Source: Syntrophus sp. PtaU1.Bin005
Lineage (GTDB): Bacteria > Desulfobacterota > Syntrophia > Syntrophales > Syntrophaceae
Length of the DNA: 47,674 nucleotides
Reading direction: 5' to 3'
Assembly: GCA_002067745.1 (NCBI GenBank)
Contig: MVRU01000015.1
Location: 1 to 47,674, forward strand
Below, piece after piece: positions 3,720-39,671 of the stretch (positions within the stretch are counted from its first letter, which is position 1; every line of letters starts with the position of its first letter). Made by a program: the position numbers and the translations under genes. The notes beneath the pieces were generated by a model. The model made no database searches, was not told where the DNA came from, and saw only the letters and a list, made by a program, of their open reading frames with translations.

Positions 3720-3817
3720 TGGCGGAAGTGCATGGGAATCGAACCCACCTGGGACGGTTTTAGCGCCCCACACCGGATTTGAAGTCCGGGAGGCCCACCA
3801 GTGACCTTGGCACTTCC
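3720..3817 (-). tRNA. selC: tRNA-Sec (anticodon TCA)
   Basis: Read on the minus strand, the sequence folds as a selenocysteine tRNA. It has an 8-bp acceptor stem (GGAAGTGC with GCACTTCC), a discriminator G, an encoded CCA, an anticodon arm CGGACTTCAAATCCG with anticodon TCA, a long variable arm, and the T arm GGTTCGATTCCC. The 98-nt length and 8-bp acceptor are diagnostic. It decodes in-frame UGA as Sec with SelB and a SECIS element. One user is in this window (HesB-like gene at 38307). A near-consensus promoter lies just upstream. The 3' end faces the AT-rich left region. Confidence 0.95.
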
Positions 3818-38207: not shown

Positions 38208-38306
38208 CAGAAATTCATTGACAAAATTCCAGGAATCATTCAGTATTCCGCATATTAAATTCAAAAGAAGAGGCAGATGCCACCATCTCTGCCGAAGGAG
38301 AAAAGA

Positions 38307-38618
38307 ATGTTTCAAGTTTCGGAAAAAGCTGGAGAGAAGATCCATGAGTTCTTAAAAACCCTGGAGGAGGTCCACCCGATCAGGCTGACGCTGACGGAGG
38401 GCGGCTGATCCGGTCCCTCACTGGGAATGGCTCTGGATGAGCCTCGAGACGGCGACGAACAATTTCAGGAAAGGGGAATCACGTTCCTGATTACCACGGA
38501 CCTGTTTGAACAGATTAAACCCGTTTATGTCGATTTTATCGAAGATGAACGAGGATCCGGCTTTCAGGTGACCTCATCACTGGCACCCGGCGACTGCTGC
38601 GGATCCTGCAGTTGCTGA
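38307..38618 (+). CDS. HesB/IscA-like selenoprotein (in-frame UGA read as Sec)
   Basis: A 103-codon frame from an ATG with AAGGAG 7 bases upstream, ending at TGA 38616-38618. Codon 34 is TGA (38406-38408), in the context LTEGG-U-SGPSLGMALDEP. On both sides the protein continues as a HesB/IscA-like domain, and the C-terminus is CCGSCSC. The UGA stands where IscA has its first cluster-binding cysteine, so Sec replaces Cys. HesB-like selenoproteins of this type are known from deltaproteobacteria. A SECIS-like hairpin lies 20 bases downstream and tRNA-Sec is in the window. Function probably concerns iron-sulfur or redox chemistry; it is not established. Standard callers would report only the part after the UGA. 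A TTGACA at 38218 has only a poor -10 at normal spacing. Confidence 0.88.
38429..38443 (+). promoter_or_regulatory. SECIS-like hairpin of the HesB-like selenoprotein
   Basis: GGCTC (38429-38433) pairs with GAGCC (38439-38443) around the 5-base loop TGGAT. The apical loop begins 25 bases after the UGA and has a G at its second position, which fits the general bacterial SECIS description (loop roughly 16-37 bases from the UGA, a G in the first two loop positions). Lower-stem pairing is imperfect. Confidence 0.6.
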
Positions 38619-38702: not shown

Positions 38703-39671
38703 ATGTCCAGTAAACCCGATTCCGAAAAGGAAATCCTGTTAACATCGGCGGAACAGATGATGGAAGCCGGGCGGTATGCTGAAGCGGCCGTGCTCTACGG
38801 CCGGCTTGTCGAGCAGTATCCCGGCGAAGAATCCTTCCTCCTGGCTCAGGCATGGGCCTTTCACGACAGCGGCTCCCGCGAAGAGGCCATCTGCTGTTTT
38901 GAAACGCTTTTTGCCGCGGAATTGAAGCTCAAAGTCTTCACCGGATTCGCCTTTGACGAACTGGTTCGGCTCTACCGCGATGGGCGGCAGTATGACCGTC
39001 TTGTAGCGATCTGCCGCCAGGCGGTTGAAGCGCAGCCGGATGAATACCCCCTTCTCAGGGAGTTGGGCAATGCGTTTCTGGTGGCAGGGATGACTTCTGA
39101 AGCGGTGGAGGTCTTCGAAAAGATCACCCGTTTGGAGCCGGACGCCCCGGAACTTTTCTGTCTTTATGGCGACGCCCTTGTCGCCGATGGAAAATACGAT
39201 GCCGCTGAAGCGGCCTATGGGGAGGCTGTCGCCCTGGATCCGGAAGCAGCGGCCCATTTCTATCAGCGCCTGGCCAATGCCCTTGCGGAATCCGGAGCCT
39301 TGGACCGGGCGGAAATCCTGCTGAGCCGAAGCCTGGCAACCTGCCCCGGCGATCCCCTCTGCCTGATCCGCCTGGCGGAAGTCCAGGTGAAGCAGCAGCA
39401 CCTTTTCGAAGCCAGGCACAGCGTGGAAGCCGCCGTTGCCTGTAACCCCAGATTTGGTGCAAGCTATTACAACCGCCTGGCACGCGCCTTGGCCGACGCA
39501 GGCTGCCATTTTGACGCCGTGGAAATGTTCGACCGCGCCATCGCCCTGGAAGAGAACAATGCCTTTTTTTACCTTTACCAGGCCGAATCCTACGAAAAGC
39601 TCAATCTCCCCGAGCAGGCGGAAGAAGCCCGCCGCAAAGCCAAGGGTCTTTCAGCCGGCAACAGAGCCTGA
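38703..39671 (+). CDS. TPR-repeat protein
   Basis: A 322-aa protein without a signal peptide, so probably cytoplasmic. It consists of about eight tetratricopeptide repeats, for example DEYPLLRELGNAFLVAGM, LFCLYGDALVADGKYDAAEAAY and AFFYLYQAESYEKLNLPEQA. No enzymatic domain is seen. It starts 84 bases after the selenoprotein gene with a weak ribosome site and converges with the receiver-domain gene. A role with the neighbouring pilus genes is possible but unsupported beyond position. Confidence 0.75.
   Translation: MSSKPDSEKEILLTSAEQMMEAGRYAEAAVLYGRLVEQYPGEESFLLAQAWAFHDSGSREEAICCFETLFAAELKLKVFTGFAFDELVRLYRDGRQYDRLVAICRQAVEAQPDEYPLLRELGNAFLVAGMTSEAVEVFEKITRLEPDAPELFCLYGDALVADGKYDAAEAAYGEAVALDPEAAAHFYQRLANALAESGALDRAEILLSRSLATCPGDPLCLIRLAEVQVKQQHLFEARHSVEAAVACNPRFGASYYNRLARALADAGCHFDAVEMFDRAIALEENNAFFYLYQAESYEKLNLPEQAEEARRKAKGLSAGNRA

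Follow-up and report, generated by a model that had tools for sequence, protein, structure and literature searches.

PMC1794560 reports selenoproteins of the HesB-like family from Syntrophus aciditrophicus as well as from other Deltaproteobacteria; its list, as far as excerpted, gives the family for S. aciditrophicus without a multiple count. According to excerpts of PMC13188914, the family carries a UxGP motif. Two profile models cover sequences of this kind: TIGR01911 (HesB_rel_seleno), the model that the reviews use for the 'HesB-like selenoprotein', and NF038090 (IscA_HesB_Se). The closest described structures are those of the E. coli A-type Fe-S carriers IscA (1r94, 1s98) and SufA (2d2a). 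Our literature search yielded no biochemical work on an IscA-type selenoprotein, although such work may exist.

We analyzed a stretch of DNA of 47,674 nucleotides from Syntrophus sp. PtaU1.Bin005 (the window). On its plus strand, a coding frame of 103 codons plus the stop extends from ATG 38307 to TGA 38616-38618. It contains a single internal TGA at 38406-38408 (codon 34), exactly as described in an earlier note made from the sequence alone. The ribosome binding site, which the note considered good, is AAGGAG at 38295-38300 (plus strand), spaced 6 nt from the ATG and kept in the genus orthologues. With Sec (U) at position 34, the translation is MFQVSEKAGEKIHEFLKTLEEVHPIRLTLTEGGUSGPSLGMALDEPRDGDEQFQERGITFLITTDLFEQIKPVYVDFIEDERGSGFQVTSSLAPGDCCGSCSC, with EGGUSGPS around the UGA codon. 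The four C-terminal cysteines (Cys97, Cys98, Cys101 and Cys103; 38595-38615, plus strand) are candidate cluster or metal ligands. When the two proteins are aligned, they fall within the Cys region at the C-terminus of IscA, and two of them, Cys98 and Cys101, are nearly invariant in the family alignment. An ordinary reading would instead give the 63-residue protein anticipated in the note, starting at the first ATG after the UGA (38427).

To assign the protein to a family we relied on profile scores. NF038090 matches the whole length with 108.6 bits (curated cut-off 85), and PF01521 (Fe-S_biosyn) matches with 28.4 bits (gathering score 26.3). Each match runs through the UGA as a single stretch, in agreement with the claimed unbroken domain similarity. 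The window protein also has the Sec column and the C-terminal Cys of NF038090 and differs from that model in nothing essential. Other cut-offs were not reached: 36.8 versus 66.35 bits for TIGR01911, and, among the equivalog models, 35.5 versus 150.6 bits for IscA, 36.6 versus 136.2 for SufA and 36.8 versus 117 for ErpA. The HesB domain is related to that of the TIGR01911 proteins and the UxGP motif is present (here USGP). The score below the cut-off makes the gene part of a sister subfamily of that model. By these scores, the right subfamily is NF038090 and not TIGR01911. The gene is thus a new member of an already catalogued selenoprotein family. Its assignment as a HesB/IscA-like selenoprotein stands, whereas its description as hidden by the UGA stands only in part: a plain reading does truncate the gene, but 'hidden' is overstated for current annotation pipelines because NCBI has a named model for the IscA_HesB_Se family.

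The predicted model of the window protein (pLDDT 82.7) has an IscA fold. The nearest structures are IscA 1s98 (Z 13.6, rmsd 2.7 over 96 residues) and 1r94 (Z 13.6) and SufA 2d2a (Z 12.9). Sec34 is at the first cluster-ligand position, and Cys98/Cys101 are in the C-terminal ligand region, the tail being modelled with low confidence. The fold and the first-ligand position are therefore shared with E. coli IscA/SufA. In contrast to these carriers, the window protein has Sec in place of Cys35 and a CxxC-like rather than a CxC C-terminal motif, and it is only ~22% identical to them, in addition to scoring below their equivalog cut-offs.

The next gene downstream (38703-39671, plus strand) encodes a TPR-repeat protein, as identified by Pfam TPR matches, and is probably part of the same operon. 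In 50 loci, including 49 with UGA genes, a TPR homolog comes immediately after the family gene in the same orientation, and the gene pair is kept across many families of the order. Because this adjacency is conserved, we consider the two genes as probably co-transcribed, and the TPR protein may be a partner of the selenoprotein. In many loci a receiver-like gene and PilT-type ATPase genes come next, encoded on the opposite strand. Upstream of the selenoprotein gene there are a Trm112/YcaR-like gene, a neighbor seen within the genus only, and LPS heptose genes. In six related loci (L027, L071, L078, L093, L108 and L110) an ArsR-family regulator gene, assigned by a Pfam check on the L093 gene, is directly upstream; this hints at metal- or redox-dependent control.

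Taken with the predicted fold, the ligand positions suggest that the protein probably carries iron or an Fe-S cluster, liganded by the Sec34 selenolate together with Cys98/Cys101. In the mechanism with the best support, it would act as an A-type carrier that binds its metal through a selenolate instead of a thiolate. We lean slightly toward the more specific view that it works as an Fe-S cluster carrier. It might be argued that the selenoprotein is engaged in metal binding or redox sensing instead, as it falls below the IscA, ErpA and SufA cut-offs, has ArsR-family genes upstream in the six loci and is accompanied by a TPR gene rather than by an isc or suf gene. However, both the fold and the ligand positions match IscA, and the ArsR neighbor is limited to a few lineages. 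We regard this main alternative as possible, though not as the favored reading.

The view that codon 34 encodes Sec can be examined by comparison with relatives. A match to the window protein is present in 80 of 100 related genomes. Nearly all matches contain exactly one TGA, and relatives at 40-86% identity continue through it. Among 112 family members from related genomes, UGA occupies the codon-34 column in ~93, while the rest have Cys (several), Trp (two) or neither (few). The column corresponds to Cys35 of E. coli IscA, so the UGA is indeed at the first cluster-ligand cysteine, and the homologs with Cys or Sec at residue 34, on whose existence the earlier note had made its reading depend, are present. 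More broadly, in 125 of the 297 sampled genomes of the phylum at least one sequence exceeds the family cut-off; a single TGA is present in most of the listed ones. For the genus orthologs, dN is 0.08-0.13 before the UGA and 0.07-0.14 after it, with dS of at least 0.8 (one value before the UGA is saturated). Equally low dN on both sides indicates that selection acts on the sequence beyond the UGA just as it does on the sequence ahead of it.

Sec insertion in bacteria is directed by a SECIS hairpin, for which the model in excerpts of PMC13188914 specifies a loop of 3-9 nt, a stem of 4-16 bp, a G in the first two loop positions, a UGA-to-loop distance of 16-37 nt and an energy of at most -7.5 kcal/mol. 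The hairpin GGCTC-TGGAT-GAGCC pointed out previously begins 20 nt after the UGA, at 38429-38443 on the plus strand (arms 38429-38433 and 38439-38443, loop UGGAU 38434-38438). All of the constraints are satisfied (5-nt loop with G as its second base, 5-bp stem, distance 25 nt, -8.8 kcal/mol). The latter energy was obtained for the hairpin folded alone (z -1.8), whereas within a 60-nt fold the energy is unremarkable (z -0.14). Thermodynamics alone would therefore not prove a SECIS; it is codon choice and covariation that do.

Among 92 UGA genes, each of the five pairs of the stem is preserved in nearly all (92, 91, 91, 90 and 89), and the codons forming the stem are far from the usage elsewhere in the same genes. 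Ala is encoded by GCT in 74 of 75 cases (61 of 476 elsewhere), Leu by CTG in all 92 (205 of 553) and Glu by GAG in 84 of 91 (282 of 764). Departures from the common residues tend to be compensated. Where Ala is replaced by Val (GTT), the Glu codon becomes GAA in seven of nine genes, converting C-G into U-A, and a U-G pair remains in the other two. In all six genes with Ser (TCT) instead of Ala, the first base of the codon following Glu is G or A, not C or T, which keeps a U-G or U-A pair. In other words, residues 42 and 46 covary and the codon of Glu45 tracks residue 42, these joint changes leaving the SECIS paired. When pair partners were reshuffled among sequences, the observed pairing at the two compensated pairs was never reached in 5000 trials, but such shuffles are blind to kinship and overstate the significance, as the compensatory changes occurred in few lineages. 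An independent-pairs test on the tree, with few independent changes available, did not reach significance. The compensatory changes are thus best regarded as a pattern seen in a few lineages.

In twelve genomes of the phylum the IscA_HesB_Se family occurs as a tandem Sec/Cys pair (L126-L137), and the hairpin is confined to the Sec copy. These pairs, each consisting of one UGA and one Cys copy and drawn from other families within the phylum, served as an independent control for the hairpin: GCT-CTG-GAY-GAG was found in every one of the 12 UGA copies but in no Cys copy (0 of 12).

The genome also has the required decoding machinery. As already noticed, selC is present in the window (3720-3817, minus strand; Rfam RF01852, 77.4 bits). 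At 34.6 kb from the selenoprotein gene, it shows that the genome has tRNA-Sec rather than any linkage between the two. In the same genome, scores of 608 bits for SelA, 370 for SelB and 375.5 for SelD all exceed the curated cut-offs, so the lack of selA, selB and selD, which would have spoken against a selenoprotein, does not apply. The selD gene (C27:31560-32489) itself holds one in-frame TGA and thus is probably a selenoprotein gene too. Given the conservation, the covarying hairpin and a complete set of sel genes, Sec insertion at codon 34 is strongly supported. SelB with Sec-tRNA(Sec) would bind the hairpin 20 nt past the UGA, and the ribosome would add Sec rather than stop. We are confident that the gene encodes a predicted 103-residue A-type (IscA/HesB-like) protein in which Sec, inserted through SECIS/SelB decoding, takes the place of the first cluster-ligand Cys. 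The selenoprotein call, made from raw sequence alone, is in this sense confirmed.

Two other readings of the UGA were considered and rejected. The codon might be read as Trp or Cys, by an altered code or a leaky stop and without selenium, as could be suggested by UGG (Trp) in two genus paralogs and by Cys in several homologs. Yet the SECIS hairpin shows covariation and goes together with UGA, UGA also serves as an ordinary stop codon in the selenoprotein gene itself and its neighbors, and the Sec machinery is present, which makes this reading highly improbable. Just as improbable is a true stop, resulting in a pseudogene or in two short genes: the standard reading does yield exactly 33 and 63 residues (the latter from ATG 38427), but this is contradicted by the comparative data, namely UGA at the same column in ~93 homologs, purifying selection equal on both sides and hairpin codons kept only with UGA, as well as by the complete sel machinery.

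The genome has seven members of the family. Since the family tree has few columns and long branches, we relied only on the supported genus clade, which includes the window gene, its orthologs and a Cys paralog. This paralog (C101:938-1249, same genome) is 72% identical to the window gene and retains the hairpin core GCT CTG GAT GAG TTC, which, judging from the sequence, is a fossil SECIS from a Sec-to-Cys change. A remnant SECIS was reported earlier for a Cys HesB-like gene of Desulfitobacterium (excerpts of PMC1794560), so a fossil SECIS in a Cys gene is a known phenomenon. At the UGA column of another paralog (C12:11767-12048, same genome) and of its counterpart in a genus relative, G002 (C7:121780-122061), there is TGG (Trp). 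Both are without C-terminal cysteines, and the G002 copy retains GCT CTG GAT GAG. These paralogs look like the result of a one-base Sec-to-Trp conversion, a case that we did not find in those excerpts of the literature that were searched. In four genus paralogs (L045, L046, L052 and L055) the ligand position lacks both Sec and Cys, and most of them are without C-terminal cysteines; they have probably ceased to act as cluster or metal carriers of this type. Another genus relative, G003, has four UGA-containing family members, two of them in tandem (L004, L054 and L056 are among its loci).

A broader, tentative interpretation, which we consider less likely than not, is that the selenoprotein and the TPR protein form a conserved two-gene module whose selenium chemistry serves a purpose different from housekeeping Fe-S assembly, such as metal sensing or the assembly of one particular anaerobic enzyme. 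It would be accompanied by a radiation in Syntrophus into Sec, Cys, Trp and ligand-less paralogs, including a one-base change from UGA to UGG that left a fossil SECIS. The family offers a clear comparative example of an RNA hairpin within a gene that visibly constrains the protein. Sec-dependent A-type proteins are widespread in the phylum, and the conserved TPR neighbor together with the tandem Sec/Cys pairs makes their role testable.
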